Translations under genes and position numbers: made by a program
Assembly (NCBI RefSeq): GCF_001482385.1
Contig: NZ_CP013611.1
Location: 558,001 to 622,000, forward strand
Direction of reading: 5' to 3'
DNA from: Pseudoalteromonas rubra
GTDB lineage: Bacteria > Pseudomonadota > Gammaproteobacteria > Enterobacterales > Alteromonadaceae
DNA: 64,000 bases
Notes under the pieces: generated by a model
Told to the model about the DNA's origin: nothing
Database searches by the model: none
The model's input: the letters and a program-made list of their open reading frames with translations, nothing else
Part shown: piece by piece, positions 5,899-50,293 of the stretch
Layout of the letters: every line of letters starts with the position of its first letter
Numbering within the stretch: position 1 is the stretch's first letter

Positions 5899-6875
5899 TG
5901 GCTAAAATGAACATGCTGCACGCCATTAACTCGGCGCTAGACATTACCATGGCAGAGCACCCGCAGGCGTGTATTTTTGGTGAAGATGTGGGTTATTTTG
6001 GTGGCGTGTTCCGTGCTACCTCCGGCTTACAGGAAAAATACGGTAAACATCGTGTGTTTAACACGCCACTGACAGAGCAGGGTATTTTGGGCTTTGCGAA
6101 TGGTCTTGCTGCGTTTGGCGCACCTGCACTGGCTGAAATCCAATTTGCTGATTATATCTTCCCTGCATTCGACCAGATAGTGAATGAGTCTGCGAAATTC
6201 CGCTATCGTTCAGGTAATGAGTTTAATGTGGGTAACCTGACTATTCGTACACCTTACGGCGGTGGTATAGCGGGGGGGTTGTATCACTCACAATCACCAG
6301 AAGCTTATTTTGCTCATACGCCAGGTCTGAAGCTGGTCGTGCCGCGTAACCCATATCAGGCAAAAGGCCTGCTGCGCGCATGTATCAAAGATGATAACCC
6401 GGTGATTTTCTTTGAACCTAAGCGTCTGTATCGCGCCTCAACAGGTGAGGTGCCTGAAGGTGATTACACCATCGAAATTGGCAAAGCTGAAGTGGTCAAA
6501 GAAGGTAAAGATGTGACCGTGTTAGCCTGGGGTGCCCAGATGGAAATCATTGAGCAAGCTGCATCTAAGGCTGAAGAAGCCGGGATCAGCTGTGAGATAA
6601 TCGACCTGCGCTCAATTTTGCCGTGGGACGCTGAAACAATTGCCAAGTCTGTGACTAAAACGGGTCGTCTGGTTATCAGCCATGAAGCACCGATCACCAA
6701 CGGATTTGGTGCTGAGATTGCTGCCACGATCCAAAAAGAGTGTTTCCTGCACCTGGAGTCACCCATTGAGCGTGTGTGTGGTCTGGATACGCCTTATCCA
6801 CTGGCACTGGAAAAAGAGTATGTACCGGATGCACTTAAAGTATTCGCTGCAATTAAGAAGTCAGTAGAGTTTTAA
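5898..6875 (+). CDS. bkdA2: branched-chain 2-oxoacid dehydrogenase E1 beta subunit
   Basis: This is the 325-residue beta subunit of the E1 heterotetramer. It shows the transketolase pyrimidine-domain motif [14 protein letters not shown] and [15 protein letters not shown] near the N terminus, and a transketolase C-terminal domain with DLRSILPWD and [13 protein letters not shown]. Its ATG overlaps the last base of the E1alpha stop codon, implying translational coupling. Length is that of the family (about 325). Confidence 0.92.
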
Positions 6876-6885
6876 GGGACGGGTC

Positions 6886-8436
6886 ATGTCTAAAGAATTT
6901 ATTTTACCTGATATTGGCGAAGGGATCGTCGAATGTGAACTGGTCGAGTGGCTGGTTAATGTCGGTGATGAAGTGAAAGAAGATCAGCCAATTTGTGATG
7001 TGATGACAGATAAGGCGCTGGTTCAGATCCCAGCCGTACATGACGGTGTGATCACCCAGTTACATTATGCTAAGGGTGACATTGCTAAAGTGCATGAACC
7101 ACTGTTTGCTATGGATGTTGCAGGCGAAGCGCCTGCTCCTGTTAGTAGCGTGAGTGACAGTGATTCTGTAGCCCCGACATCAGCTGCGCATTTAGAAGAC
7201 TTTATTTTGCCAGACATTGGTGAAGGTATTGTTGAGTGTGAGATCGTAGAATGGTTGGTCTCAGAAGGCGACGAGATTAAAGAAGATCAGGCTGTTTGTG
7301 ATGTAATGACAGACAAAGCGCTGGTGCAAATTCCGGCTAAGTATGATGGTGTTGTTGAAAAACTATATTATCAGAAAGGCGATATTGCTCAGGTTCATAG
7401 CCCGCTATTCCAGATGCGCCTAGGTGCTGATCATAGCCCAAAACAAGATGAACTGGCTGTGCATAAACCACAACCAGTGAAAGAGAGCAAAGCACCATCT
7501 GCACAGCCTTCCGCGCCAGCGAAAGTAAATGGCAAAGCGGTAGCGTCTCCAGCAGTCAGACGCCGTGCGCGTGAAATGGACATCGATATTACCCTGGTAC
7601 CCGGTTCAGGCAAGAATGGTCGAGTATTTAAAGAGGATCTGGAACGTTTTTCGCAGGGCGGTAACACGGCCGTTGCTCAGGCAACACCAGCTCAAGTTGA
7701 ACCTTCAGCAACTGCGCCAGTTGGTACAGGATCAACCCGGGTTGAGGCTATCCGAGGTATGAAAGCCGCGATGGCCAAGCAAATGGTGGCGTCTGTTTCT
7801 ACCATCCCACACTTTACTTACAGTGATGAAATTGATCTGACAGAACTGATTGCACTGCGCAAGTCTCTTAAAGAGCAGTATGCAAAGCAAGGTATTAAGC
7901 TGACAATGATGCCATTCTTTATTAAAGCTCTGTCTCTCGCAATTAAAGAGTTTCCGATCCTTAATTCGCAGGTCAATGATGAGTGTACAGAGATCACTTA
8001 TTTTGATGACCACAACATAGGTATGGCAGTTGATAGTAAACTCGGCCTCCTAGTTCCTAACATTAAGCAATGTCAGAATAAGTCAATTGTGGATGTGGCT
8101 GAAGCAGTTACGCAGTTAACAGATGCAGCACGCGAAGGGCGAGTATCACCAAATGACCTTAAAGGTGGTACCATTTCAATTTCGAATATCGGTGCAATTG
8201 GTGGTACAACAGCGACCCCAATCATTAATAAACCCGAAGTTGCTATTGTGGCATTAGGTAAATTACAACATCTGCCACGTTTTGATGCACAGGGCAATGT
8301 GGTCTCACGCTCGATTATGCAAGTCAGCTGGTCTGGTGACCATCGCGTAATTGATGGCGGAACCATTGCAAGATTTAATAATTTGTGGAAGTCTTACTTA
8401 GAGGAGCCGGCTAAAATGATGATGGCTATGCGCTAA
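6886..8436 (+). CDS. bkdB: branched-chain 2-oxoacid dehydrogenase E2 (dihydrolipoyl acyltransferase)
   Basis: E2 moves the acyl group from lipoamide to CoA and forms the complex core. The 516-residue protein has two near-identical lipoyl domains (lipoyl Lys in MTDKALVQIP, about residues 43 and 145), a peripheral-subunit-binding domain (ASPAVRRRAREMDID to FKEDLERF, about 218-253) and the catalytic acyltransferase domain ending in SGDHRVIDGG. The two lipoyl modules are unusual beside the single module of many branched-chain E2s and look like a tandem duplication. A terminator follows. Confidence 0.93.
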   Translation: MSKEFILPDIGEGIVECELVEWLVNVGDEVKEDQPICDVMTDKALVQIPAVHDGVITQLHYAKGDIAKVHEPLFAMDVAGEAPAPVSSVSDSDSVAPTSAAHLEDFILPDIGEGIVECEIVEWLVSEGDEIKEDQAVCDVMTDKALVQIPAKYDGVVEKLYYQKGDIAQVHSPLFQMRLGADHSPKQDELAVHKPQPVKESKAPSAQPSAPAKVNGKAVASPAVRRRAREMDIDITLVPGSGKNGRVFKEDLERFSQGGNTAVAQATPAQVEPSATAPVGTGSTRVEAIRGMKAAMAKQMVASVSTIPHFTYSDEIDLTELIALRKSLKEQYAKQGIKLTMMPFFIKALSLAIKEFPILNSQVNDECTEITYFDDHNIGMAVDSKLGLLVPNIKQCQNKSIVDVAEAVTQLTDAAREGRVSPNDLKGGTISISNIGAIGGTTATPIINKPEVAIVALGKLQHLPRFDAQGNVVSRSIMQVSWSGDHRVIDGGTIARFNNLWKSYLEEPAKMMMAMR

Positions 8437-8467
8437 TCGTCGATTTTGCTAGTTTCTTACTTGTTGT

Positions 8468-8491
8468 AAAGGGCCTTTACGGCCCTTTTTT
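8468..8491 (+). terminator. intrinsic terminator after bkd operon
   Basis: AAAGGGCC, a five-base loop (TTTAC) and GGCCCTTTTT form a stem with a T run, about 30 bp after the E2 stop. Confidence 0.9.
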
Positions 8492-8550
8492 AATGGCCTC
8501 TCTTGTAAAAAATGAAGAAATGCACTCAAGATATCGACATGGATTTTGAT

Positions 8551-8580
8551 TGATCCGTGCTACCACCTCACTCGTATTAA
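8551..8580 (+). promoter_or_regulatory. predicted ECF11 (RpoE/ChrR) promoter of the LON-domain gene
   Basis: TGATCC (8551-8556), an 18-bp spacer and TATTAA (8575-8580) match the pattern at the sigma gene (9204) and the lipid operon (10795). It also fits the TGATC...TAA form known for Rhodobacter RpoE promoters. It lies 31 bp before the ATG of the gene it would drive. Confidence 0.7.
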
Positions 8581-39361: not shown

Positions 39362-40606
39362 TCAGATAGTTTGTTTATTCAAAATGGTCGCGCAGACGCT
39401 ATTCAGCATCAGCTTGTCGACCTTCTTGTTTGGGTTTTTGCGTATATGAGAGATCACGTGTGGCATCACGTTCTCGACCAGCATGCGGGCGTTACCTTCA
39501 ACGCGTGAATGCAGCCATTTCCAGAATTGCTCGGAGTCATCAGCCAGTGGTAATGCGCCCTGACTTAGCTCCATGAATAAGGTTTTGATGTCTTCGATAG
39601 GCAGCTCGCCAACTGCGCGAGGCCAGAAACACACTCGGCTGGCGATCAGTTCGTAACGCTCCTGGCTTTGTAGTTTGTCTACCAGTTGGATATTGCCGAT
39701 CAGCACCACGCCAATTTGTGCGCGGTCCGAGATAGTACGCAGCGGATCTAGCGCATTGGGTTTGCACTTGTCGGCCTCGTCCAGGATTATGATTTTGTTG
39801 GTGCCTTTGAGGGTATCCACTATTTTGTCGCGTAATTTACTGTTACCACCGGCTTTGGATATACCGAGGCGATCAGCCAGAGTCTTTAGTACTTGGCTAG
39901 AGGTGGTGTCCTCGTCGCCTTCAATTAGCAGCACATGATCGTTGTTATCACGATAAAACTCCGCGCCTTTTGATTTACCTATTCCAGCCTGACCAGAGAC
40001 AACTGCAATACGCCTGCGCTCCTGTGCATGTTCGCACGCCATTTTTATTAATTTTGGTACCGACGTTTGTACATAGGGCACATCGCCATAGCGGATGCGT
40101 ATGTTGGCTAGTACATCGCTGTTAGGTGTTTTATTGCCTGTTTGCACCTCCATGTCGGTGGGCTCCAGGATGCTCCAGATTTCGTGCAGCAGTTTGGTTG
40201 GGCTTGCGGCATATTTGCCGTTTAGCAGCTGACTGATGGTGCCCGAACTTTTATTGATGCGGGTTGCCAGGGTGCTGCTCATAACACCCTGCCCCTCAAG
40301 CTCCCGCTCTTTCATGCGGCGCTTGATACGCGCGAGTATGAGTTTGTCATCTTCGGTGTAGGCTCCCGACATAGGCGCATCGGCCATAAACATTTGCGGG
40401 TCAAACTCACCAAAAAACCGCTGCCACAGGGAGTCAATCACCTTGGTTGGCTTAACAGGGCTTTGGCCCTCCAGCACAGCCTGCACACTCTCCAGTGCCC
40501 AGCCATTGCAATACTCTGTGGGCGGTATGTTAAATAGCTCAATCTCGTTGTTGATAATGCGGGTTTGCAGCTTCTGCAACTCGCTGTAGTGCTCAGTAAA
40601 TTTCAT
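39362..40606 (-). CDS. B: Mu B-like AAA+ ATPase, target DNA activator
   Basis: The 414-residue protein has an N-terminal extension, a helix-turn-helix (LATRINKSSGTISQLLNGKY, about residues 112-131) and an AAA+ ATPase with Walker A SGQAGIGKSKG and Walker B IIILDEADKC. MuB binds target DNA, stimulates transposase and gives target immunity. At 414 residues it is longer than MuB (312), mainly at the N terminus. It is joined to A by a one-base overlap. Confidence 0.88.
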   Translation of the reverse strand: MKFTEHYSELQKLQTRIINNEIELFNIPPTEYCNGWALESVQAVLEGQSPVKPTKVIDSLWQRFFGEFDPQMFMADAPMSGAYTEDDKLILARIKRRMKERELEGQGVMSSTLATRINKSSGTISQLLNGKYAASPTKLLHEIWSILEPTDMEVQTGNKTPNSDVLANIRIRYGDVPYVQTSVPKLIKMACEHAQERRRIAVVSGQAGIGKSKGAEFYRDNNDHVLLIEGDEDTTSSQVLKTLADRLGISKAGGNSKLRDKIVDTLKGTNKIIILDEADKCKPNALDPLRTISDRAQIGVVLIGNIQLVDKLQSQERYELIASRVCFWPRAVGELPIEDIKTLFMELSQGALPLADDSEQFWKWLHSRVEGNARMLVENVMPHVISHIRKNPNKKVDKLMLNSVCATILNKQTI

Positions 40607-42258
40607 TATTTGTCATCCTCTGTTACTGCAAAATCGGTGATTTTTAGTGCCTCTGTGTCGTGCTGTTCAATTGCAAAATCATCCAGTTGCACGGGCATTA
40701 AGTTCGGTTGTTTTACTGGCAGTGCCGCTGGTGTATCTGCCGCCAGTTGCTCTACCTTTTGAACATCCACCACGCGATTAACAGCAGCGCGGGCTTGTTT
40801 CTCAGCCAGATGTTTTTGCAGGCGTTTGGTTTGGTTAGTGAGCCGCTGGGCTTGTTTTTCTTCAATGCGCGATGCTGGGATGGCCTGCTGCTTTTCTTTG
40901 AGTTCGCAGATCATCAAAAACTCACCGCTGTGCTCGTACAGGTTTAGGTAGCTGTCGTCGTGAAGGTCGTAACCGGCTATCAGCTCCTGGCCATTAAACT
41001 GGTGCAGGTTATCTGCACGGTAGGTGCGGTTGTGCAGGCGCACACGGCCACGGCGTACATTTACCTTTTCGCGCGGTAAAATCACAAAGTCGGTGCACGG
41101 TGGCGCGTCTTGCTGCAGGCCTTCTTGCCATACCTGCAGGCGGGTTTTGCCTTTAATCTCCGGGTGTGGCGAGTTGTGATAGTCGTCCAGGAACGCGGTA
41201 AACTCAGCCACCCACTCGTCTACAGATGGCAACCGGCGCTTGCCCTGGCTTGCCTCTTTTAGCATCAGTTGTTTGTGCCGGTCGTTGTGGTCGCGGCCGC
41301 AATAGGTTTCAAACCGTTTGCCCACCCGGTCCTCCATGTGCAAAAAGAACCGCTCAATCCATTTAGCGCGGGCATTACCTGGTATGGCAAAAATGGTGTC
41401 TATATCAAACTGGGCGTACACACCACAGCACTCGTCGGCCATCATCTGGCTTTTGTAGCCTGAGCCGTTATCCACATACAACATGCTGGGTATATGGTTG
41501 TGCGTACGTATGGCTCGGGTTAGTGCCGTTAGAGTACTGATTGAGGATTCGGCCTCGCCCAGCTCCCACCCAACAATGCAGCGGCTGCCAACATCCTGGA
41601 ATGCTGTTAATTCAGCACGCCACTGCTTGCCAGTGTTTGGGTGTGCCAGGTAAACGTCAATCTGATGGCCATCAGCGTTATACAAAAATCCTGGTGGGAT
41701 ATGGTCAGTGGCACGGATCAGGTGATCCTTGTGCTTCTCTCTATATAGTTTGGTACCTAACCGATATGGGCTTTGTGGGCCCAGTTCGTGCGGTAGGCTG
41801 TTTATAAACCGCCGCACCTGGTACGCTTGGGCCTTGTAGTTTTCTTTTACCAGCTGGTCTGCCACCTGGGCAAAGCTGGGTGAGTTGATGGCGTGGTATA
41901 GCTCCAGCGCACGCAGCGACCAGTCGGGTTGTTTAGCCGCCCTGCCTTTGTGGTTTGGCAGCAGCCCTTCCATGCCCTGGTCTTTATACGCCTTTATCCA
42001 GTTATATAACGTGGCGCGTGATGGCAACTTGCCCAACTCAGCAACAGCCTGATGTATAGCAGGCGATACCAGGCCGCTGTTCAGGTTGTCATTTAGCTTT
42101 TCCAGCGCCTTATCCAGGGCGTTGTCTATGCTCGACAGATGCTTAACCAGCGTAGCGCGTACCTGTGCGGTTTTGCGTGCTTTATCTCCTGCTTTGCTCC
42201 AACTGGTGGTGCTTTGCAGGCTGGGTAAGTTGTTGTATTTGGCAACAGCAGGATGCAT
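40606..42258 (-). CDS. A: Mu A-like DDE transposase
   Basis: The 550-residue recombinase has N-terminal helix-turn-helix domains (LPSRATLYNWIKAYKDQGMEGLL) and an RNase H-like core with Asp in ADGHQIDVYLA, Asp in MLYVDNGSGYKS and Glu downstream in ERFFLHMEDRVGKRFETY, followed by a Mu-type beta barrel (REKVNVRRGRVRLHNRTYRADNLHQFNGQELI). MuA is 663 residues, so this one is shorter, chiefly at the N terminus. It joins phage ends to target DNA during integration and lytic replication. Confidence 0.92.
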   Translation of the reverse strand: MHPAVAKYNNLPSLQSTTSWSKAGDKARKTAQVRATLVKHLSSIDNALDKALEKLNDNLNSGLVSPAIHQAVAELGKLPSRATLYNWIKAYKDQGMEGLLPNHKGRAAKQPDWSLRALELYHAINSPSFAQVADQLVKENYKAQAYQVRRFINSLPHELGPQSPYRLGTKLYREKHKDHLIRATDHIPPGFLYNADGHQIDVYLAHPNTGKQWRAELTAFQDVGSRCIVGWELGEAESSISTLTALTRAIRTHNHIPSMLYVDNGSGYKSQMMADECCGVYAQFDIDTIFAIPGNARAKWIERFFLHMEDRVGKRFETYCGRDHNDRHKQLMLKEASQGKRRLPSVDEWVAEFTAFLDDYHNSPHPEIKGKTRLQVWQEGLQQDAPPCTDFVILPREKVNVRRGRVRLHNRTYRADNLHQFNGQELIAGYDLHDDSYLNLYEHSGEFLMICELKEKQQAIPASRIEEKQAQRLTNQTKRLQKHLAEKQARAAVNRVVDVQKVEQLAADTPAALPVKQPNLMPVQLDDFAIEQHDTEALKITDFAVTEDDK

Positions 42259-43169
42259 TATTTAATCTCCTTGCTTTGTTTCTCTAATAAAAAAGACTCA
42301 AGCAATCGGCCACGCTCTGTATCTATGTACTGCCATTCGGCTTGAGTGAATTTGGGAAGGTGATCCAGCCCTTCAATTTGGCCTGAAAACTCATTGCTTA
42401 AACGTTCGAGCATATTGCCGATCTGGCAATAGATACTCGCCCAGGTGTGGTGAACAACTTGCGCAGCCGATACCCTTGAATCGCTTGGCAATTGCCGGTT
42501 ATCACATAATTGCTGTACTTGCGTTATTGTGCTGGCCAACGCCTCGTCCAGCAGCTCTGTATTACAAATTGCGTCTTTTCGCATTTCGCTTATAAACACA
42601 GGCATTTCAAAGCGGATCTGTGGCGCTTTTCTCAGCTTTTCATGTTCAAGTTCGTTTATGGCTCGGGCAGCAGATTCAAGTGCTTCATCCTTTTCCTGCA
42701 TAAGGTCGGCAACCTGCTGTTTAATGGCATTGCCTGCGGTCTCTGCCAGTACCTCGTAGTCTTCGTCATCAAGGGCTTTAAGCGTCTCGATTGGAACATT
42801 AGTTAGTGCGGTTAACTGCCTTTGGCTGAAATTCAAAATGGACACTGTGTCCACTTTGGATTTGGGTAAAGCCTGCAGCATTTTTGCTATAGCCATAGCC
42901 CTGCTTGCTGTACGGCGATGAATTTTGCGATTGTTCAATAAGGAGTTAAATTGACCATGGCCCGCTTCGGCCTTAACTCTTAACAGAATGAAGCCCATTT
43001 CTGCGGCATCACAAAACTGCCTATTCGCAAGGAATGCCACCCTGTCCATGCACTCGTCAATTGTGTTAGGCATGACAACGTTCAGTGTGGATTCCAACAG
43101 CTCAACCTGATGCTGTACTTCATCCAATGATTCCGTACAGATTAGGTCCGATGTTTTCTGCTCAGTCAT
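42258..43169 (-). CDS. DUF3102-like DNA-binding-type early protein
   Basis: The 303-residue protein has a central region (EMGFILLRVKAEAGHGQFNSLL and KIHRRTASRAMAIAKML, about residues 58-95) resembling DUF3102/ParB-like helical segments of phage proteins. Coiled-coil stretches follow (QQVADLMQEKDEALESAARAINELEHEKL). Its stop overlaps the transposase start. It could be a nucleoid or partition-like protein and is a candidate to bind the phased TTTAAA arrays; this is inference. Confidence 0.55.
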   Translation of the reverse strand: MTEQKTSDLICTESLDEVQHQVELLESTLNVVMPNTIDECMDRVAFLANRQFCDAAEMGFILLRVKAEAGHGQFNSLLNNRKIHRRTASRAMAIAKMLQALPKSKVDTVSILNFSQRQLTALTNVPIETLKALDDEDYEVLAETAGNAIKQQVADLMQEKDEALESAARAINELEHEKLRKAPQIRFEMPVFISEMRKDAICNTELLDEALASTITQVQQLCDNRQLPSDSRVSAAQVVHHTWASIYCQIGNMLERLSNEFSGQIEGLDHLPKFTQAEWQYIDTERGRLLESFLLEKQSKEIK

Positions 43170-43232
43170 AACAACCTCGAATTTTGGGCAGATCTTGGTC
43201 TTTGATAGGCATTGTCATAGCTCCGGGATTAG

Positions 43233-43661
43233 TTAGGACTTAGGCGAGAGTTGTTCTAGCAGCCGCTGCTTATGCTTTTGTAGTTCGGCGATCTGTAGGT
43301 CTGCTTGCGCCACATCTTGCATCATTAGCGCGTGTTGATTGACCGCCTTATATATAATGGGCTCAATAAGAATGTTTAGCGGCTCAATGCTTTTTAGCGC
43401 CCACAATAAGGCAGGGAGGTATTGAATAGGCATATTCGTCGGCTGGCTAGGAGCAAACCAACGATTTAAGTTTCCTTCGTTTACTTTTACTTCATGTACC
43501 TGTAGCGCGCGATTCATTCTGTCTGCTAGCCCTGCACGAGTGAAAGTACTTCTGCGCATGCATGCATTTACAGCATGAGAGAAAGCTGCCAACACGTCAC
43601 AATCAGGTGGCGTTTGACTTTCGAAAATATTGTTTTCCTGTTCAGAGTCGTAATTTTCCAT
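43233..43661 (-). CDS. early phage protein with helix-turn-helix-like N half
   Basis: The 142-residue protein has AFSHAVNACMRRSTFTRAGLADRMNRALQVHEVKVNEGNLNRWFAPS, which reads like an HTH for an early regulator, and a C-terminal helix (QDVAQADLQIAELQKHKQRLLEQL). GGAGATTTTCGC precedes the ATG. No family is firmly recognised. It is the second gene of the early transcript. Confidence 0.6.
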   Translation of the reverse strand: MENYDSEQENNIFESQTPPDCDVLAAFSHAVNACMRRSTFTRAGLADRMNRALQVHEVKVNEGNLNRWFAPSQPTNMPIQYLPALLWALKSIEPLNILIEPIIYKAVNQHALMMQDVAQADLQIAELQKHKQRLLEQLSPKS

Positions 43662-43696
43662 GCGAAAATCTCCTGTTATTTAATGTGGTGTTAGTG

Positions 43697-44029
43697 CTAC
43701 TTATGATCCATTCTTGGCCTAGGGACTGGCTTGCCCTGCTTTATTGCTTCGACAATTTGTTGTCGCCTAGTTTCTCGATTTTTTGGGCCTCGCTTTTTGC
43801 TTGTTGTGTATTTGTCACCAAACACGCTCGAAAGACTTTTTCCGAGCGACAGACAAATTGCTGTAGCTATATGTTTTGAAGTTGAGCTGCCTGTAGCAAC
43901 GTTGTACACATGTGATACGGAGCAGCCTTTGGCAGCAGCAATATCTGAAAACTGGACATCGTTTGCTGATAGGCCATTGCTGATGTCCTGGATAGACATC
44001 GGTTCAAATGTTTTTTCTTGGTCAGTCAT
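43697..44029 (-). CDS. Ner-like early regulator (HTH)
   Basis: The 110-residue DNA-binding protein has an HTH (FSDIAAAKGCSVSHVYNVATGSSTSKHIATAICLSLGKSLSSVFG, residues 28-72) and a basic tail (KKRGPKNRETRRQQIVEAIKQGK). Its position, first in the early operon and divergent from the repressor, equals Mu ner, which represses early and repressor promoters. Sequence resemblance to Ner itself is weak. Confidence 0.65.
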   Translation of the reverse strand: MTDQEKTFEPMSIQDISNGLSANDVQFSDIAAAKGCSVSHVYNVATGSSTSKHIATAICLSLGKSLSSVFGDKYTTSKKRGPKNRETRRQQIVEAIKQGKPVPRPRMDHK

Positions 44030-44060
44030 GTTAGATTTACCTTTATGCTTAAATTGTTTC

Positions 44061-44170
44061 GCTAAAATTATTTTGCACTTAGTGTTTTTTCAAGTTAGCG
44101 CTAAATAAATATAGCGTCAAGTTTAACTTTTATTTTTTATGCTAAATAAATTAGGTGTTGACAGCTAAAA
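44061..44170. promoter_or_regulatory. divergent early/repressor control region with GCTAAA repeats
   Basis: GCTAAA occurs at 44061, 44100, 44141 and 44164; the copies at 44100 and 44141 extend to GCTAAATAAAT. TTAGCGCTAA (44095-44104) is a perfect palindrome. A minus-strand promoter with -35 TTGAAA (44093-44088), a 17-bp spacer and -10 TAATTT (44070-44065) fits the early operon. These repeats are probable operators for the repressor and/or Ner-like protein. Confidence 0.65.
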
Positions 44171-44668
44171 ATGTTTACCGATAGTATGGCGGTGTCTGAG
44201 ATAGGTGACGTGATCTCAAAGCTGCAAAAAAAATTTGGTGTGAGTAGTGATCGGGCTTTGTCAGAAGAGCTTGGGCTCTCTCATAGTGGGATAGCTATGG
44301 CGAGGAAGAAAGAGACGCTTCCATACGCAGCTATAGTTTTAGCTTGCATCAAAAAGGGTGTCTCTCTTGATGAGATCTTTGATATTGAGAGCAAAAGCAA
44401 ATTAAATGACGCTACTTTCAATGAAAAAAAGGCAACTGTTGAATCCAGCGGTAGTGTTAGAAATAGTACCGAAGATGCATTGGCCGCATTGGCCTTAGTT
44501 GAAGAAATAATGGATGATTTGTTGGAACCAAAACACCTTGACGCGGAGCGTGAACTCTTAATTCGGAATAAGTTACGGCCAATGTTAATTGAAAAAGCAT
44601 TCGAACATAACTTTAACGAAATCATGGTTAAAACCATTGCTGAGGGAGCGCTTTTTATGGCCTACTGA
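44171..44668 (+). CDS. phage CI-type repressor with HTH, no peptidase domain
   Basis: The 165-residue protein has a CI-repressor HTH (VISKLQKKFGVSSDRALSEELGLSHSGIAMARKKETLPYAAIVLACIKKGVSLDEIF, residues 14-69), a linker and a helical C terminus. No LexA/S24 catalytic residues are seen, so RecA-stimulated self-cleavage is not expected and induction must use another route, as in Mu. It is divergent from the early operon and 12 bp upstream of a secreted protein gene and a sensor kinase gene, apparently in one operon. Confidence 0.8.
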   Translation: MFTDSMAVSEIGDVISKLQKKFGVSSDRALSEELGLSHSGIAMARKKETLPYAAIVLACIKKGVSLDEIFDIESKSKLNDATFNEKKATVESSGSVRNSTEDALAALALVEEIMDDLLEPKHLDAERELLIRNKLRPMLIEKAFEHNFNEIMVKTIAEGALFMAY

Positions 44669-44680
44669 AGGATAAATAAT

Positions 44681-45202
44681 ATGAAAATTAGAATTGCCCC
44701 ATTAGCTCTACTCATTGGAATACTGTCTTCATCAGCAGTAGCTTTAGAACCTTTACCCGACAGAGCGCAAGTCCAGCGGATGAATGCTGATCTGTTGTTG
44801 CCAGATGGCAGCACGCTCAATGTCGATGTCTCGTTTGACTGTGGAAGCGACTACAAAAACACAGCCGTAATGGTTATGAGTAATTCAGGCGCACAATTAA
44901 TCGCTGCTGCTTACACCCACCTGTACGGAGAGAGCGCTGGTCAATCAGTTATGGAAGCGTGGCAAAATAAGCAAAACGAGTCGGACCCAAGAAAACCCAC
45001 CTACCTATTTATTCTTGCTCCCCGCGAGCAAAACTTCGATTGGCAAAAACGCCAGCAAAACAAATTTAACAAAATGCTTTCACGTGTTAGTATTAGTGAA
45101 ACGAGTGTTGATAATTTTGAAATGGATTCAGCGTCGCCACTCCCTCCAGTTGTATTGGCGGGATGTGGTGTACGAAACCACAACCCGCAAGCAGTAGAAT
45201 AA
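44681..45202 (+). CDS. secreted protein of unknown function in the repressor operon
   Basis: The 173-residue protein has a signal peptide (KIRIAPLALLIGILSSSAVA, cut before LEPLP) and two Cys (about residues 58 and 165). It contains RAQVQRMNADLLLPDGSTLNVDV and YLFILAPREQNFDWQKRQQNKFNK. It is periplasmic or secreted. It lies between the repressor and the sensor kinase; an intrinsic terminator after it would reduce, but need not abolish, expression of the kinase. No family is recognised. Confidence 0.65.
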   Translation: MKIRIAPLALLIGILSSSAVALEPLPDRAQVQRMNADLLLPDGSTLNVDVSFDCGSDYKNTAVMVMSNSGAQLIAAAYTHLYGESAGQSVMEAWQNKQNESDPRKPTYLFILAPREQNFDWQKRQQNKFNKMLSRVSISETSVDNFEMDSASPLPPVVLAGCGVRNHNPQAVE

Positions 45203-45212
45203 TTAGGGCCAA

Positions 45213-45235
45213 GGGGAGGTATCGCCTCCCTTTTT
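45213..45235 (+). terminator. terminator/attenuator between secreted protein and sensor kinase
   Basis: GGGAGG, a five-base loop and CCTCCCTTTTT lie 12 bp after the secreted protein stop and 19 bp before the kinase ATG. It may attenuate kinase expression. Confidence 0.85.
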
Positions 45236-45253
45236 CAAAAGGAATTCTTAGCT

Positions 45254-47932
45254 ATGTTTTCAGCAAGGATTACATTACTGGCGTTAGCTTTACACGGTGG
45301 AGCAGCAGCCTTGGAGGTTGAGCATCTTAGCAGTGTTGCTCAGGATAGCCGTGATTACGTTTATTTCCCGTCTCATGAAGGTTTGCTCAGATATGATGGC
45401 GAGCACCTTCTTAATTTGAGCGTGTTCTCGGCTTTGCCTCCTGGTCTTGCAAGAGATATTGAGATCAGTGACACCGACATAGCGTACGTTTTATATAATT
45501 CCGGTCTTGTATGGGCGATTGACCTTAGGAGCCTTGAGGCTCGACTATTTGCTGAAACATCTGCAACCAATATAGCTATTACCCATGACAGTTTGTTCAC
45601 TCAAGAACCCAACCGTGTTCTTGAGTATAAGTTGCGCACAGGAGAGTATGCAATCCGGCTATCAGGGAAATCTGAGATAATAGATTTAGAATCCGGGTAT
45701 GGTAACGTTTATGCACTAGCAAATGATGGGCTCTACCAATTTCAAAAAGGCATGAGCACAAATGTAGTGTCACAGACTGTTGAAGTTGGCGACATAGATG
45801 TTACGCCACATGGTGCGGTGTATTTCGCAAATGATCATCTCGGGTACTATTCAAGTTTACAAGGTACTGTACATACCAATGACTCGATAAAGCGTGCGGA
45901 GAACCTCACATATATCGCACCTTACTTTGTTTATTATACTGAAGGTGACAGCGTTAATGAGGCTTCGTTAACAACTCTGGAGCGGACTCGTACGCAAGTA
46001 AACTCTACCCGGAAAACGTATCTATCCTTGTTTGCTGATAGCAAGCAACAGCTCTGGGGTCTAAATATCAACGAATTCGGAATTGTAGAGGGCAGCAGCC
46101 GAGCAACTACTCTTACTATTGGCTCACCTTACAACATTTTAGAGCGCGTAAATAATTCATGGTGGGTGGGAACAACTAAAGGTGTTTATAATGACGGAAA
46201 GCCTGTTGATTGGCTCAATGATCAGATAGGAACTGATTTTGAAGTCACGGCGTTTTCTACTTTTGCGGGATACCTGATTGTTTCGACTAATGATGGGGCC
46301 TACTCTGTTGACGTTGCCAAACGTGTCGTGGAACCGATTTTTGAAGGCTATGTGATCAACTCAACAGTAATTGACGAACAATTATATCTGGCAACGGATG
46401 AAAGCGGGATTGTTCGTTTTAATTCCAAGCTTGAATATGATGATTTTCATATTATTAACTCGATGCTAATCAGCAACGAGATATTGAATGTTACAGAGAT
46501 TGACAACTACCTTTACATTAGTACAGCTGCCGGATTGGTCCGGGCCAATGAGCCGAATTCTGTATTTCATGAGTATCAAGGGCAGTCTAAAGTTACGGAC
46601 GTCGCAAAACTTAACAGTGACATTTACATGGCTACCTACGGCGACGGGCTGTATAGAAAAGATGGCGATGGCTGGTTGAAAGTTCCGTCACCGAAATATA
46701 TCAAAGAGATCGTCGAGGCCCAGAATAAAATTTATCTATTGACAAATAATGGCATTCATTTTTTGGAAGCTAACAAATTTGCGACTCAGCTAGTTCGAGA
46801 AACTCAAGACCATGCCTTTATGATCGGTAGTGTCAGACTTGTCGGCGAGCGTATCTATGCTGTTAGCGATAGCGCCTTTCTGGAACTCACGGATTTCAGA
46901 GAGTTTGAATTAGACGCTCCAATCGTGAGCTATGTTAAATCACCCAACGGAATAACATTAGGTGGAGATAGTTTAACGTTGGATGAGGACGGGTGGCTTG
47001 ATATTGCGGTTTCAAATTTACAGTATGCATATAATGAGCGAGTTAAGTACGAATACCGTTTCAATGGTGGTGAGTGGTTAGCTTTGCACAGCCCAATGCT
47101 ACAGTTGAACGAATTGGCTCCTGACCGCTATGTAGTTGAGTTCAGGCAGCGGCTTGGGGAGGCTTGGAGCGAGCCAGTAACGTACAGGTTTGAGATTAAG
47201 TCAGCTTGGTACAACTCCCCTACAGCAATTACAGTTTATATTACCTTGGTTGTTTCTATCTTGCTTGCTGCTGGTCTTTATGTTCACTTTTGGATTCAAT
47301 CGTTTCACAGGGTCTATCGCCAAAACCGAGAAAAATTACAGCGGAGTAATCTTACTCATGCGGCTATGTTAGCTGAGCAGGCCAGAGTTCTTTGCTCAGG
47401 TGACGACACCATGTTGACTGAAGGGTTGGTTAAATTAGATAAAGTATTAGAGCTGCTTGAACCGATTGCTCATAACGGACCGTATTTAGGCGATCAGAAA
47501 CTTAAGTCGGGCTTAGATTTACTTCAGGTGCAGTCAAATCTGCAGGCAAAGATAAAAGTTCATTTTGACGTTACTCTAGGCCGACTCAAGATGGATAAAG
47601 AATTGGAGAACAACGTCTACTCTGTGGTATATCACGCGTTGCATAATGCGATACTTCACTCAGAAGGTACGTTTGTGAAAGTTAATATTCATAAGCTGAA
47701 AAACCAGCTTGAGGTTTGTATCGAGGATGACGGTATAGGGATCCCACTTAAATCACGACTGCACTTTGGTGAGGGCCTATATACGATGAGGGACATAGCC
47801 AAGGCATTGAATATTAAGTTGCGTATTAAGACTGGTAAGAAAGGTACGAGTATTTCAATGATGTTCCCTCTCATAGAACCTGAGTGCCCAACCAAAGACG
47901 AAATCCAGCGAGATATGCTGGCAAAGATGTAA
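45254..47932 (+). CDS. beta-propeller/Y_Y_Y sensor protein with histidine-kinase-type ATPase domain
   Basis: This 892-residue protein has a signal sequence (1-19), a large periplasmic beta-propeller-like region with repeated DG and WWVGTTKGVY motifs (about 25-560), a Y_Y_Y-type sandwich (about 575-650; YNERVKYEYRFNGGEW), one TM segment (about 656-680) and a cytosolic HATPase domain. The ATPase shows an N box (YHALHNAILHSEG, about 790), G1 EDDGIGIP and G2 GEGLYTMRDIAKALN, closest to NarX/LiaS kinases. The usual ERxRIAxELHD phosphoacceptor motif is absent; only a lone His in NLTHAAM is seen. No partner regulator is adjacent. Confidence 0.82.
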   Translation: MFSARITLLALALHGGAAALEVEHLSSVAQDSRDYVYFPSHEGLLRYDGEHLLNLSVFSALPPGLARDIEISDTDIAYVLYNSGLVWAIDLRSLEARLFAETSATNIAITHDSLFTQEPNRVLEYKLRTGEYAIRLSGKSEIIDLESGYGNVYALANDGLYQFQKGMSTNVVSQTVEVGDIDVTPHGAVYFANDHLGYYSSLQGTVHTNDSIKRAENLTYIAPYFVYYTEGDSVNEASLTTLERTRTQVNSTRKTYLSLFADSKQQLWGLNINEFGIVEGSSRATTLTIGSPYNILERVNNSWWVGTTKGVYNDGKPVDWLNDQIGTDFEVTAFSTFAGYLIVSTNDGAYSVDVAKRVVEPIFEGYVINSTVIDEQLYLATDESGIVRFNSKLEYDDFHIINSMLISNEILNVTEIDNYLYISTAAGLVRANEPNSVFHEYQGQSKVTDVAKLNSDIYMATYGDGLYRKDGDGWLKVPSPKYIKEIVEAQNKIYLLTNNGIHFLEANKFATQLVRETQDHAFMIGSVRLVGERIYAVSDSAFLELTDFREFELDAPIVSYVKSPNGITLGGDSLTLDEDGWLDIAVSNLQYAYNERVKYEYRFNGGEWLALHSPMLQLNELAPDRYVVEFRQRLGEAWSEPVTYRFEIKSAWYNSPTAITVYITLVVSILLAAGLYVHFWIQSFHRVYRQNREKLQRSNLTHAAMLAEQARVLCSGDDTMLTEGLVKLDKVLELLEPIAHNGPYLGDQKLKSGLDLLQVQSNLQAKIKVHFDVTLGRLKMDKELENNVYSVVYHALHNAILHSEGTFVKVNIHKLKNQLEVCIEDDGIGIPLKSRLHFGEGLYTMRDIAKALNIKLRIKTGKKGTSISMMFPLIEPECPTKDEIQRDMLAKM

Positions 47933-47934
47933 TA

Positions 47935-47968
47935 GATAGAAGCAGCCCAGACCGCTTCTATCTTTGTT
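47935..47968 (+). terminator. terminator after sensor kinase
   Basis: GATAGAAGC and GCTTCTATC form a 9-bp stem followed by TTTGTT, three bases after the kinase stop codon. Confidence 0.85.
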
Positions 47969-48003
47969 GGTGCACAAAAAACACACAGTTGATTGACTGC
48001 AAG

Positions 48004-48095
48004 AAAAAATAAAAAAAACCTAAAAATAGCCTGCTTAGATTTGTTTTATTTTTTGAACTTATGTGCTAGGTCTTGGGGAGTTAGTGTCCACTAAC
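48004..48095. repeat. inverted repeats upstream of the small peptide gene
   Basis: AAAAAATAAAA (48004-48014) is an exact inverted copy of TTTTATTTTTT (48044-48054). GTTAGTG-TC-CACTAAC (48080-48095) is a second palindrome. With the hairpin at 48223 they make the 270 bp before the 30-residue peptide gene strongly structured. No convincing gene lies here. Confidence 0.55.
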
Positions 48096-48222
48096 ATAAA
48101 TATTATATCCCTATGTTATCCACAATCCGTAGAAAGTTGCTCTATTGCAAAACTGAACGGACCGCCCTATCTTAGTGACTTGTAGCGATATTTGTTCTTC
48201 GGGAAGTTCGGAAGGCAAAGAA

Positions 48223-48250
48223 AAAGCACCATGGTGGAACATGGTGCTTT
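48223..48250 (-). terminator. strong hairpin/terminator (minus strand) upstream of the peptide gene
   Basis: AAAGCACCATG, a six-base loop and CATGGTGCTTT form an 11-bp perfect stem. On the minus strand it is followed by TTTCTTTGCC, so it can terminate minus-strand transcription from 48534; on the plus strand it would be a 5' leader structure. Confidence 0.75.
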
Positions 48251-48364
48251 CGCGAAAAGGTCGTTGCAGTTTGCAATTGGTTTTCGCAGTTTCAACAAAA
48301 CAAAGCGTATAACAAACCGATTCAGACAGCAATATGTGTTTAATCAAATTTGATGGAGGACATT

Positions 48365-48457
48365 ATGAAAGTAAATGTCTCGATTGAAATTTCAGATGCT
48401 GTTGCTGCCGGGTTTATCAACCTAGCTGTTGCTGTGATTGGAGCGATAGCTTTATAA
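48365..48457 (+). CDS. 30-residue hydrophobic peptide
   Basis: From ATG 48365 a 30-codon frame encodes a peptide starting MKVNVSIEISDAVAAG and ending INLAVAVIGAIAL. GGAGG lies seven bases before the ATG and a strong terminator begins four bases after the stop. The C-terminal half could span a membrane. Size and hydrophobicity recall type I toxins such as TisB or small membrane regulators, but a secreted signal peptide cannot be excluded. Expression is supported only by the RBS and terminator. Confidence 0.55.
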   Translation: MKVNVSIEISDAVAAGFINLAVAVIGAIAL

Positions 48458-48461
48458 GAGA

Positions 48462-48490
48462 ACGGGGCCTGATGGCCCCTTTCTTCTTTA
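48462..48490 (+). terminator. terminator after the 30-residue peptide
   Basis: GGGGCC, a TGAT loop and GGCCCC are followed by TTTCTTCTTT. The strong GC stem directly follows the small gene. Confidence 0.9.
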
Positions 48491-48533
48491 GTTATAGTTA
48501 TCAACAGAAAATGTGACTAAGGTGTGAGCAACC

Positions 48534-49220
48534 TCAAGCTTCCAGTTTGATATCTTTATTGGCCATGTAGTGCGCCATACGTTCGCTGTACTTTGGATAG
48601 GTATCATCTAACTCCGTTATCGCTGCTTCTACTCTCTCAAACCCTTCTATTAGCTTTGTAACACGGCCATTGTTTATGTCGATTTTGTCGTGCTGCACTT
48701 TCATGTTTGGGTGGTTGTACAGGCTCCATGCCGTTTCGCATACCTGCATTGTGTTCACGTATTCGAGTAGCTCACTTTTGAGTGCTGGATTTTTAATTTT
48801 GCTTTTAGCCAGTAAGCTGACGATGGTTGTTTCGTAGCAAGACAGCGCTATGTGAAATGTCCAGCGAGTGTCTGGGTTCTTCATCTCTACTGAGGTAATT
48901 GCCGTGGCTTCTAGCAATAGTTCCATGTAATCAGGGTGGCGCAACCAGTTGTAGTGCCAGCTGGACATATAGGATTTGTCGAATTTACCCTTTCGATACT
49001 GGTTCAGTGTAAATGCTGCACCACCTATAACTAATATGACAGCAAGCGTTATGTTCATCGCCATTTCCTGTTCTGCCAGGTATTTGGCTTGTTCTTCTGG
49101 CGTCATTTTTTCGAACTCTGCCTGCATTTCTTCCAGGTCGGGTTCAAGCATGTATACAGAAGCGAGTGGAGAAAATGAAGTTAAAGTTATAAGTAGCATA
49201 AGGGCGAGTATTGAACGCAT
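48534..49220 (-). CDS. membrane-anchored protein of unknown function in the phage cargo region
   Basis: The 228-residue protein has a signal-like N terminus (MRSILALMLLITLTSFSPLA), an acidic helical stretch (EEMQAEFEKMTPEEQAKYLAEQE), a TM segment (NITLAVILVIGGAAFTL, about residues 55-71) and a helical C-terminal cytosolic part of about 150 residues. No family is recognised. AAGGAGTAGGC precedes the ATG. It is convergent with the peptide gene and lies in the cargo block between repressor and late genes. Confidence 0.65.
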   Translation of the reverse strand: MRSILALMLLITLTSFSPLASVYMLEPDLEEMQAEFEKMTPEEQAKYLAEQEMAMNITLAVILVIGGAAFTLNQYRKGKFDKSYMSSWHYNWLRHPDYMELLLEATAITSVEMKNPDTRWTFHIALSCYETTIVSLLAKSKIKNPALKSELLEYVNTMQVCETAWSLYNHPNMKVQHDKIDINNGRVTKLIEGFERVEAAITELDDTYPKYSERMAHYMANKDIKLEA

Positions 49221-49549
49221 GCCTACTCCTTGTTAATGACAATGCAATTTAATGCAGAAACTTTAACATTACGCGCACGCCCTCACAATGAAATATTTCA
49301 TACGTGTAACTTTAACTGGGCGTTTTACACCCAAAATACAAATTCGCTCAGACGCGCCCTGAGCGCCTTTGCGATGATTTTGCTGTAGGTATTGTTGCAT
49401 TAAAATCGTTTAAACTGTTTCAGGCGTTTTTAAACCGGTTTTAAACTGGGTTTAAACTCGTGTTTGAGGTGGTTGGTGTTGCGGGTGGTAATTTGGCTGG
49501 TAAAAGTTACGATGTGGGATCAGGCCCGAGTGCGGACCTGCAATTATTT
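49221..49549. other. 329-bp gap between cargo genes
   Basis: It holds the promoter side of the 48534-49220 gene, a partial activator-like site (GTTTTACACCC near 49322) and the TTTAAA array at 49409. A 41-codon plus-strand frame after the array (about 49446-49568) has plausible codons but no RBS. Confidence 0.5.
49409..49456. repeat. TTTAAA array, 11-bp phased
   Basis: TTTAAA begins at 49409, 49429, 49440 and 49451, with TTTCAG at 49418. CCGGTTTTAAACT (49435-49447) recurs exactly at 63905-63917. Read on the minus strand the array resembles the one at 29216, so the two are imperfect inverted repeats. Confidence 0.8.
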
Positions 49550-50293
49550 CTAGTCCCTTTCTCGTGCTAATGAGTTAAGGAACAGACCTGCAAGCACAAT
49601 TCCTAATAGAGCTTCGAGCCCAACTAAGAATCTATTTAGCTCCGTTGTTGGCACTATATCGCCATAACCTAAGGTTGTTATTGTGACTACGCTTAGGTAC
49701 AGCATGCGAAGGAATTGACCTTCGGTGTCTATAGGCTGGCCCTCAATAGCGTCAGCCAAGTCTTTCCATTTGAAAAACGTTACTCCGTCAATGGGAACAG
49801 ATGTTTTACCGAGTTTAGAATCAAAAATAAGACTATTTGGGTGGTTTAGGGTGGCGTAAAAGTGACATTCGATTGGAAAAAAGAATCCATCATTGTCTCT
49901 ATCTTCACAACTAGGCTCCAACTCGTAATTATGAACTAGCGCGAGCTCTTCCCTAACGTATTCACCATCATTAGTGGCTACAACAATTGAGAAGCCGATA
50001 CTAATGTCCTTTAGCTCGCCTGGCTGTATGTTAAATCTTACAAGAGATAAGTTCTGGCTTTGTATTGTAGATTTTCCAACTAATTCGTCGATATACCTTT
50101 TGATATCCCCAGAAAATTCACTTTCAAGTTTCTGAACATTAAATTCAGCATGTGAAGTGGAGTGATAAAACCCTCTTGAATTCAATAAATACAAGAAAGC
50201 AAAGCCTATTATTACAACAAAGTAGCCTAACGCCCAAACAGAGCTAGGTACGCGACCCAGATTGCTAGATATTGTTCTAAAAAAGTTTGCCAT
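49550..50293 (-). CDS. two-TM potassium channel family protein
   Basis: The 247-residue protein has an N-terminal TM segment (WALGYFVVIIGFAFLYLL), an extracytoplasmic domain of about 140 residues with Cys in SCEDRDNDGFFFPIECHF, a pore loop TVVTITTLGYGDIVPTTELN with the selectivity filter TLGYGD, and a second TM segment (FLVGLEALLGIVLAGLFLN). This is the Ion_trans_2 pattern. It is an unusual cargo for a phage and sits directly upstream of the divergent late promoter. It may alter membrane potential on infection, which is inference. Confidence 0.82.
   Translation of the reverse strand: MANFFRTISSNLGRVPSSVWALGYFVVIIGFAFLYLLNSRGFYHSTSHAEFNVQKLESEFSGDIKRYIDELVGKSTIQSQNLSLVRFNIQPGELKDISIGFSIVVATNDGEYVREELALVHNYELEPSCEDRDNDGFFFPIECHFYATLNHPNSLIFDSKLGKTSVPIDGVTFFKWKDLADAIEGQPIDTEGQFLRMLYLSVVTITTLGYGDIVPTTELNRFLVGLEALLGIVLAGLFLNSLARERD

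Follow-up and report, generated by a model that had tools for sequence, protein, structure and literature searches.

A 64,000-nucleotide stretch of the Pseudoalteromonas rubra genome (NZ_CP013611.1, positions 558,001 to 622,000; hereafter the window) contains a Mu-like prophage in which three successive plus-strand genes encode a CI-type repressor (rep, 44171..44668, 165 residues), a small protein predicted to be exported (sec, 44681..45202, 173 residues) and a propeller sensor (kin, 45254..47932, 892 residues). We find rep-sec-kin to be conserved as a three-gene cassette among the Mu-like prophages of Pseudoalteromonas and its relatives. The fixed order of the genes, their exchange as a whole cassette and their co-divergence support the view that they form one lysogeny-related unit; these properties, and the missing histidine of kin, were computed directly. 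On balance we lean toward interpreting the unit as a transferable lysogeny-control cassette, a membrane-receptor-gated switch used in place of SOS-driven repressor cleavage. An initial annotation, made from the letters of the window alone, had placed the three genes one after another on the plus strand, and the open reading frames (ORFs), their coordinates and the gaps between them (12 bases for rep-sec, 51 bases for sec-kin) confirm this. The ORFs begin at the first ATG, GTG or TTG, and some N-termini are therefore too long.

The initial annotation proposed a search for the same gene order in other transposable prophages. We found the order rep-sec-kin in dozens of contigs, and it is therefore not a chance arrangement. 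Among IMG/VR contigs found by sec, rep adjoins sec in 31 of 31 (cut in L158) and all three genes are present in 29, the remaining two (L159 and L161) ending inside the cassette. The named genome contigs found by sec (n = 38) comprise 13 with rep, sec and kin, three orphans (L105-L107) and 22 Colwellia-type host loci. Loci overlap between searches, the same contigs returning under several ids. The triad is not limited to one backbone: in L134, L155 and L166 it sits in Mu-like phages with different transposases and, behind kin, a block of endolysin and terminase genes. The distribution of sec is narrow: of 394 genomes sampled from the order, eight contain it.

No match to kin, sec or rep was obtained in 50,697 phage records (limits of 1e-5 for kin and 0.01 for the others, with a distant sec also used as query). 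A transposase control in the same records returned 156 records, all below 60% identity, indicating that this phage group is poorly sampled there. Among the matches listed in a search of the titles and abstract starts of the open-access literature, there was no description of such a repressor-sensor module, and nothing was returned under "phage-encoded histidine kinase" or for a propeller two-component regulator with prophage. In the papers examined that mention a prophage-encoded two-component device, the words refer to a cited lysis cassette. Mu-like Pseudoalteromonas phages are described in PMC5498523, in an excerpt of which the word "kinase" is absent.

Two loci of one genome from another family of the order (G418) contain sec-kin. 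In an integrase-type prophage (L177:5043-10865), sec-kin lie behind a possible regulator and before the integrase; this locus was not counted as a triad, the regulator before sec being only a weak match (phrog_5736, 0.0054). The second sec-kin copy of this genome (L176) has a shorter kin. Another genome, G013, has no match to sec and only C-terminal pieces of the kinase, located at two contig edges.

The cassette is exchanged as a whole with other repressors. Among the 32 contigs chosen by transposase alone, the full triad is present in 12 and truncated by the contig end in one more (L053, with a sec fragment); 17 have another repressor at the same place and two do not cover it. In none of the 32 does sec or kin occur together with another repressor type. 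The other repressors have the length expected of a helix-turn-helix (HTH) plus S24 protein in 14 of 17 cases (216-266 residues) and consist of the HTH only in three, as judged by Pfam for three of them (S24 in L057 and L063, HTH only in L055) and by a home-made model and length for the rest. A natural swap is seen at the DNA level between L061 and L062, which are 97-99% identical over ~16 kb flanking a replaced block of ~5.4 kb. Within this block, which contains the phage regulator gene reg, the ner-like gene, two different triads and nearby cargo, there is no aligned stretch longer than 100 bases. L063, equally close outside the block, has an S24 repressor; compared with L061 its block is ~6.2 kb, with one short stretch at 79% identity. 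In Mu-like phages the S24 domain accompanies mitomycin inducibility, according to the portion of PMC8541194 that was available. The triad thus takes the position that the SOS switch has in its sister phages, where the repressor is of the S24 type.

S24-type relatives contain varied cargo in the region corresponding to sec-kin. In L068 a reverse transcriptase gene (6269-7045, minus strand), which matches PADLOC reverse transcriptase models, lies behind the S24 repressor where triad phages have sec-kin.

The linkage is also seen when the search starts from the repressor. Among 108 genomes of the genus we found 15 full-length relatives of rep, 14 of them beside sec-kin (kin being interrupted in G034); the sole exception is a lone cargo copy in an S24-type phage (G019). 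None of 14 weaker matches, mainly to the HTH, lies beside sec: six that were inspected (L218-L223) belong to other elements, and the others are in genomes without sec or far from sec.

Within the cassette the genes diverge together. In 23 non-redundant phages, picked for having all seven genes, the distance correlation was 0.90 for rep-kin versus 0.55 for rep-transposase. After controlling for transposase, protease, reg and ner, the correlation of the rep C-terminal domain was 0.54 with sec and 0.63 with kin, while the corresponding values for the rep HTH were 0.17 and 0.20; when the HTH is controlled as well, the C-terminal correlations are 0.52 with sec and 0.61 with kin. Where a phage has two repressors, the rep-kin analysis used the best-scoring one and the comparison of the C-terminal domain with the HTH used the one next to sec; the interrupted kinase of L029 is represented by one piece in the distance matrices. 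The genes behind kin turn over: in 36 pairs whose repressors are at least 60% identical, 24 of 252 gene comparisons were shared. For L024 and L142, with repressors 99% identical, none of seven genes behind kin is shared. The presence of sec and kin in all of the turnover pairs follows from how the set was built; the count in transposase-selected contigs and the repressor-led search are free of that selection.

The repressor has a CI-type HTH (PF07022, 2.3e-6) at residues ~13-69 and a C-terminal domain at ~95-165, the boundaries and the helical look of the latter being judged by inspection of the alignment. Pfam gave no match to the S24 peptidase in rep up to E 1, in agreement with the initial annotation, which had described a repressor lacking a self-cleavage domain. 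The S24 repressors of L057 and L063, at the equivalent place, do match PF00717. Near-identical copies of a lone triad-type repressor without sec-kin were observed in S24-type phages (L073:4399-4875 and L217:8301-8777), and the same repressor occurs in a triad phage of another type (L070:3856-4332). Judged by eye in alignment A3, it is similar to the L060-type repressor; such a copy could give a lysogen immunity against the L060-type group.

The kin protein has a signal-peptide-like start, propellers at ~22-555, a beta-sandwich at ~556-650, one membrane helix within the helix 656-714 (by inspection), a helical linker and a GHKL ATPase-like domain at ~768-872. Pfam matches are to the propeller and to HATPase_c (PF02518, 2.7e-9), the latter called in 18 of 25 kin relatives. 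The structure model has a mean predicted local distance difference test score (pLDDT) of 83 and a predicted TM-score of 0.54. By fold its ectodomain is closest to 3ott, 3va6, 4a2m, 4a2l and 3v9f; it matches the periplasmic parts of BT4673, BT4663 and BT3049 with E down to 5e-30 and TM-scores of 0.36-0.49 over the query, and sensors of this type are also the best PDB matches by profile. In having propellers and a Y_Y_Y-like beta-sandwich ahead of one membrane helix, kin shares the ectodomain arrangement of the Bacteroides-type propeller sensors. The ATPase part resembles the VraS and DesK structures, and its nearest models are NarQ, UhpB, MctS, LiaS and NarX, all far below curated cut-offs. The description of kin as a Y_Y_Y-type sensor with a NarX-like ATPase thus stands for the propeller, for HATPase_c and, below cut-off, for the NarX-type models; the Pfam Y_Y_Y domain itself is called in 6 of 25 relatives and is absent from the window protein.

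In the linker (residues 690-786) there is no conserved column that could be the phosphoacceptor histidine, the best being occupied in 9 of 25 relatives. The ATP motifs, judged by eye, are intact in 18 of the 25 and degenerate in seven, so that a mechanism common to the family cannot rely on ATP hydrolysis or on phosphotransfer; a phosphorelay was rejected in that role. No receiver or AraC domain was called in kin, and neither the ten window ORFs scanned (40606 to 50293) nor the shared triad includes a response regulator. The absent histidine and the absent regulator bear out the initial annotation, which had noted a kinase without the usual phosphoacceptor motif and without a partner regulator. 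The gene is under purifying selection (ratio of nonsynonymous to synonymous substitution rates, dN/dS, of 0.06 for the window versus L085), and its nearest relative, 96% identical, is from P. rubra. In a few loci kin is split into two frames (L108/L164, L112, L084/L149). In the kin tree, in which four orphans were placed and the root is not resolved, three of these (L106, L107 and L028) fall within the phage forms, and the fourth, L176, groups with L177.

The N-terminus of sec is signal-peptide-like by inspection, and the protein at 44681 is thus predicted to be exported, as the initial annotation had claimed. Its two cysteines, C54 and C162, are invariant in the 21 rows of alignment A4; in a wider alignment (A6, 40 rows) the second is invariant and the first nearly so. 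No Pfam family was found for sec across 40 relatives, nor any NCBIfam match for the window protein, and PADLOC gave no match for sec or kin at 0.01. The fold is uninformative, because the sec model (pLDDT 72) had no match in the PDB at E <=0.001, the best being 0.95.

These features suggest how the cassette might work. In the lysogen rep, sec and kin would be made from one operon, as their spacing and common strand indicate. Kin, alone or in contact with sec, would read a periplasmic condition; being phage-made and exported, sec is a natural candidate ligand or co-receptor. The histidine-less GHKL part of kin may then change shape and act by contact on the C-terminal domain of rep. Contact is the proposed mode of signaling because a phosphoacceptor is not conserved and some relatives have lost the ATP site. 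The signal would tighten or release repression, the direction not being readable from the sequence, and the cassette would take the place of RecA/SOS repressor cleavage in otherwise near-identical phages. In its fullest form, to which we give slightly less than even chances, the proposal is that a propeller receptor free of phosphotransfer and an exported ligand or co-receptor gate rep through its C-terminal domain; that the cue lies outside the inner membrane and is a glycan, the state of the envelope, or sec itself as a measure of lysogen presence; that the cassette is a plug-in swap for SOS-cleaved repressors; and that hosts keep the pair after the phage decays. The cassette suggests that dormant prophages sense something outside the inner membrane, not DNA damage, to decide on waking. 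The possible "signal-sensing lysogeny module" of the initial annotation is supported, as a lysogeny-related rep-sec-kin unit, by gene order, exchange and co-divergence; that the ATPase part acts on the repressor is, as before, something we infer.

A number of observations weigh against a switch gated by sec and kin. Non-cleavable repressors are normal in Mu, D108 and B3, where they are HTH only (PMC8541194, in the portion available), so that the absence of S24 by itself demands no other inducer. In the profile used for the repressor-led search, 17 of 19 rows were triad repressors, a composition that favors matches of that kind, and the C-terminal domain of rep is the part nearest sec, so that physical distance may explain part of the co-divergence. 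The promoter scan, at chance level overall, includes a match inside sec (45066), and kin may have a separate promoter. The family repressor also travels by itself, as cargo in L073 and L217 and as a second copy in L070. The pair, in turn, occurs without it. Seven of 21 sec-bearing Pseudoalteromonas genomes have no intact family repressor, and in the five such loci compared dN/dS was 0.05-0.10 for kin and 0.05-0.36 for sec. All 22 Colwellia-type loci have the pair directly upstream of miaB, without any phage gene match. Beside the orphan kin of L028, on the other strand, there is a receiver-like protein (8008-8565, plus strand; by inspection). Because the pair is kept without the repressor in the seven Pseudoalteromonas and 22 Colwellia-type loci, sec-kin can have, or have gained, a function that needs no family repressor. 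Its persistence may also mean re-use. The initial annotation had held that a kinase found alone in other genomes would speak against the module. These repressor-less loci go half way toward that, but a decayed repressor lies just upstream of sec in all seven of the Pseudoalteromonas loci.

The Colwellia-type host loci are L113-L133 and L135; in L178 and L179 the pair is likewise upstream of miaB. The three Colwellia-type kinases in the motif table (L113, L114, L124) all have a degenerate ATP site, and the sec homologue of L124, the one printed in full, lacks the first cysteine and has no obvious signal peptide.

A pair that serves the host without a repressor keeps alive the explanation that sec-kin are lysogenic-conversion or exclusion genes, expressed with rep but directed at the envelope or at infecting phages and not at rep. 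We regard this as unlikely, though it is the most serious of the alternatives. The genes lie directly behind the repressor, a place that we take to be comparable to that of rexA-rexB in lambda; they are retained in hosts after repressor decay, with a fixed host version in Colwellia-type genomes; and the cargo that S24-type relatives have there includes the reverse transcriptase of L068. Yet cargo in this region turns over fast while sec-kin stay with one repressor family, it is the C-terminal domain of rep and not the HTH that tracks them, and PADLOC recognizes neither protein. A sensor of the two-component type that signals to a host response regulator, with rep linked by position only, would account for the GHKL domain of NarQ/UhpB/VraS type, for the ATP motifs that are intact in most relatives and for the receiver-like neighbor in L028. 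We consider it improbable, given that a linker histidine column is occupied in at most 9 of 25 relatives, that the ATP motifs are degenerate in the other seven, that no response regulator was seen among the ten window ORFs scanned, and that the tie to one repressor family is constant. The region from kin to the protease gene is a cargo region, and sec and kin could in principle be chance passengers behind a repressor; their fixed order across several backbones, purifying selection and the 14 of 15 in the repressor-led search speak against this, and we hold it to be very improbable.

Known systems share individual elements with the proposed receptor-gated switch. Hybrid sensors of Bacteroides are coupled to polysaccharide loci. 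The likeness of BT4663, BT3049 and BT4673 to kin is in the ectodomain (fold and profile, at the TM-scores given above); in contrast to them, kin has no conserved phosphoacceptor histidine and no called receiver or AraC domain, and its position couples it to a phage repressor and not to a polysaccharide locus. The layout of lambda cI-rexA-rexB, with two co-oriented genes behind the repressor and one of them with a membrane part, is similar to that of the cassette. Here, however, the two genes are tied to one repressor family and exchanged with it. Phage-carried receptors that inform lysogeny are already known, namely arbitrium and the LuxR and VqmA types, and those are cytosolic: the LuxR and VqmA receptors are cytosolic ligand-binding transcription factors, and the arbitrium receptor is cytosolic too. 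Arbitrium (AimR-AimP-AimX), as far as the portion of PMC8612738 available describes it, likewise places a phage-encoded exported product and its receptor in the lysogeny locus. The exported product in our case is a 173-residue protein and not a short peptide, and the receptor is a transmembrane protein and not a cytosolic DNA-binding one; no RRNPP-type receptor family was among the matches of rep, sec and kin. The LuxR- and VqmA-type quorum receptors, in the portions of PMC6456758 and PMC11315295 available, are similarly carried by prophages and thought to inform lysis. In the cassette, by contrast, the receptor is a membrane protein and DNA binding is left to a separate protein; no autoinducer-binding domain fused to an HTH was among the Pfam or NCBIfam matches of the cassette proteins. 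The S24 (SOS-cleaved) repressors of Mu-like phages, such as that of MuM16-1 (PMC8541194, same portion), occupy the same place in relatives, whereas rep has no S24 domain and is followed by two further genes.

For Mu-like phages it has long been asked how a prophage is induced when its repressor does not cleave itself. L061, L062 and L063, near-identical phages that differ in this block (an S24 repressor versus two receptor-coupled cassettes), make the question directly testable. If the proposal is right, transmembrane receptors would join the phage-carried devices that inform lysis, a histidine-less GHKL receptor may signal directly to a DNA-binding protein, and a phage sensor pair would have been kept by its host.

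The sec-kin intergenic stem-loop (45203..45253, plus strand) is partly supported as a conserved element by folding and a shuffle test. It is present in 17 of 21 folded triads and absent from four. In 10 of 15 triads tested (the four without a hairpin and two near-duplicates being left out), its folding energy was matched by at most 10 of 200 shuffles; the L136 hairpin was no stronger than shuffles, and those of L103, L146 and L148 only weakly so. The initial annotation's attenuator-like terminator between sec and kin is not supported for the window, whose hairpin does not stand out from shuffled sequences (45 of 200 as low) and went uncalled in a terminator scan. The promoter scan as a whole was at chance level (13 found, 14.3 expected).

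A 30-residue peptide (48365-48457) and a membrane protein (48534-49220) had been taken to complete the block, and we rejected both as members of the unit. For the peptide, no match in the other loci was better than E 0.11 among those listed. Its ORF has a GGAGG site and is followed by a strong G+C hairpin with a T-rich tail (48365-48479). The membrane protein is encoded on the minus strand, opposite to the cassette, and its sole match is a 27%-identical protein in L027, L104 and L143, which look like one phage.

Matches to phage-family profiles indicate that the Mu-like prophage occupies the window from ~29 kb onward. Its early genes, for transposases and regulators, are on the minus strand, and genes for head and tail occupy the plus strand from 50456 onward; rep, sec and kin lie between the two blocks, also on the plus strand. 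The early genes include transposase B (39362, minus strand), the Mu-type transposase A (40606..42258, minus strand; phrog_310, 3.7e-102), reg (43233..43661, minus strand; phrog_2345), which moves with the triad in the natural swap, and the early regulator gene that is exchanged with it (43697..44029, minus strand; phrog_769, 4.3e-6). For the last, "ner-like" is our own label, the PHROG annotation being "transcriptional repressor". The divergent control region between this gene and rep (44030..44170) contains repeats with GCTAAA-like cores, which are candidate operators. Beside the prophage protease gene there is an ion-channel cargo gene (49550-50293, minus strand; PF07885, 7e-15), whose product contains TTLGYGD, which we take to be the potassium-filter motif.

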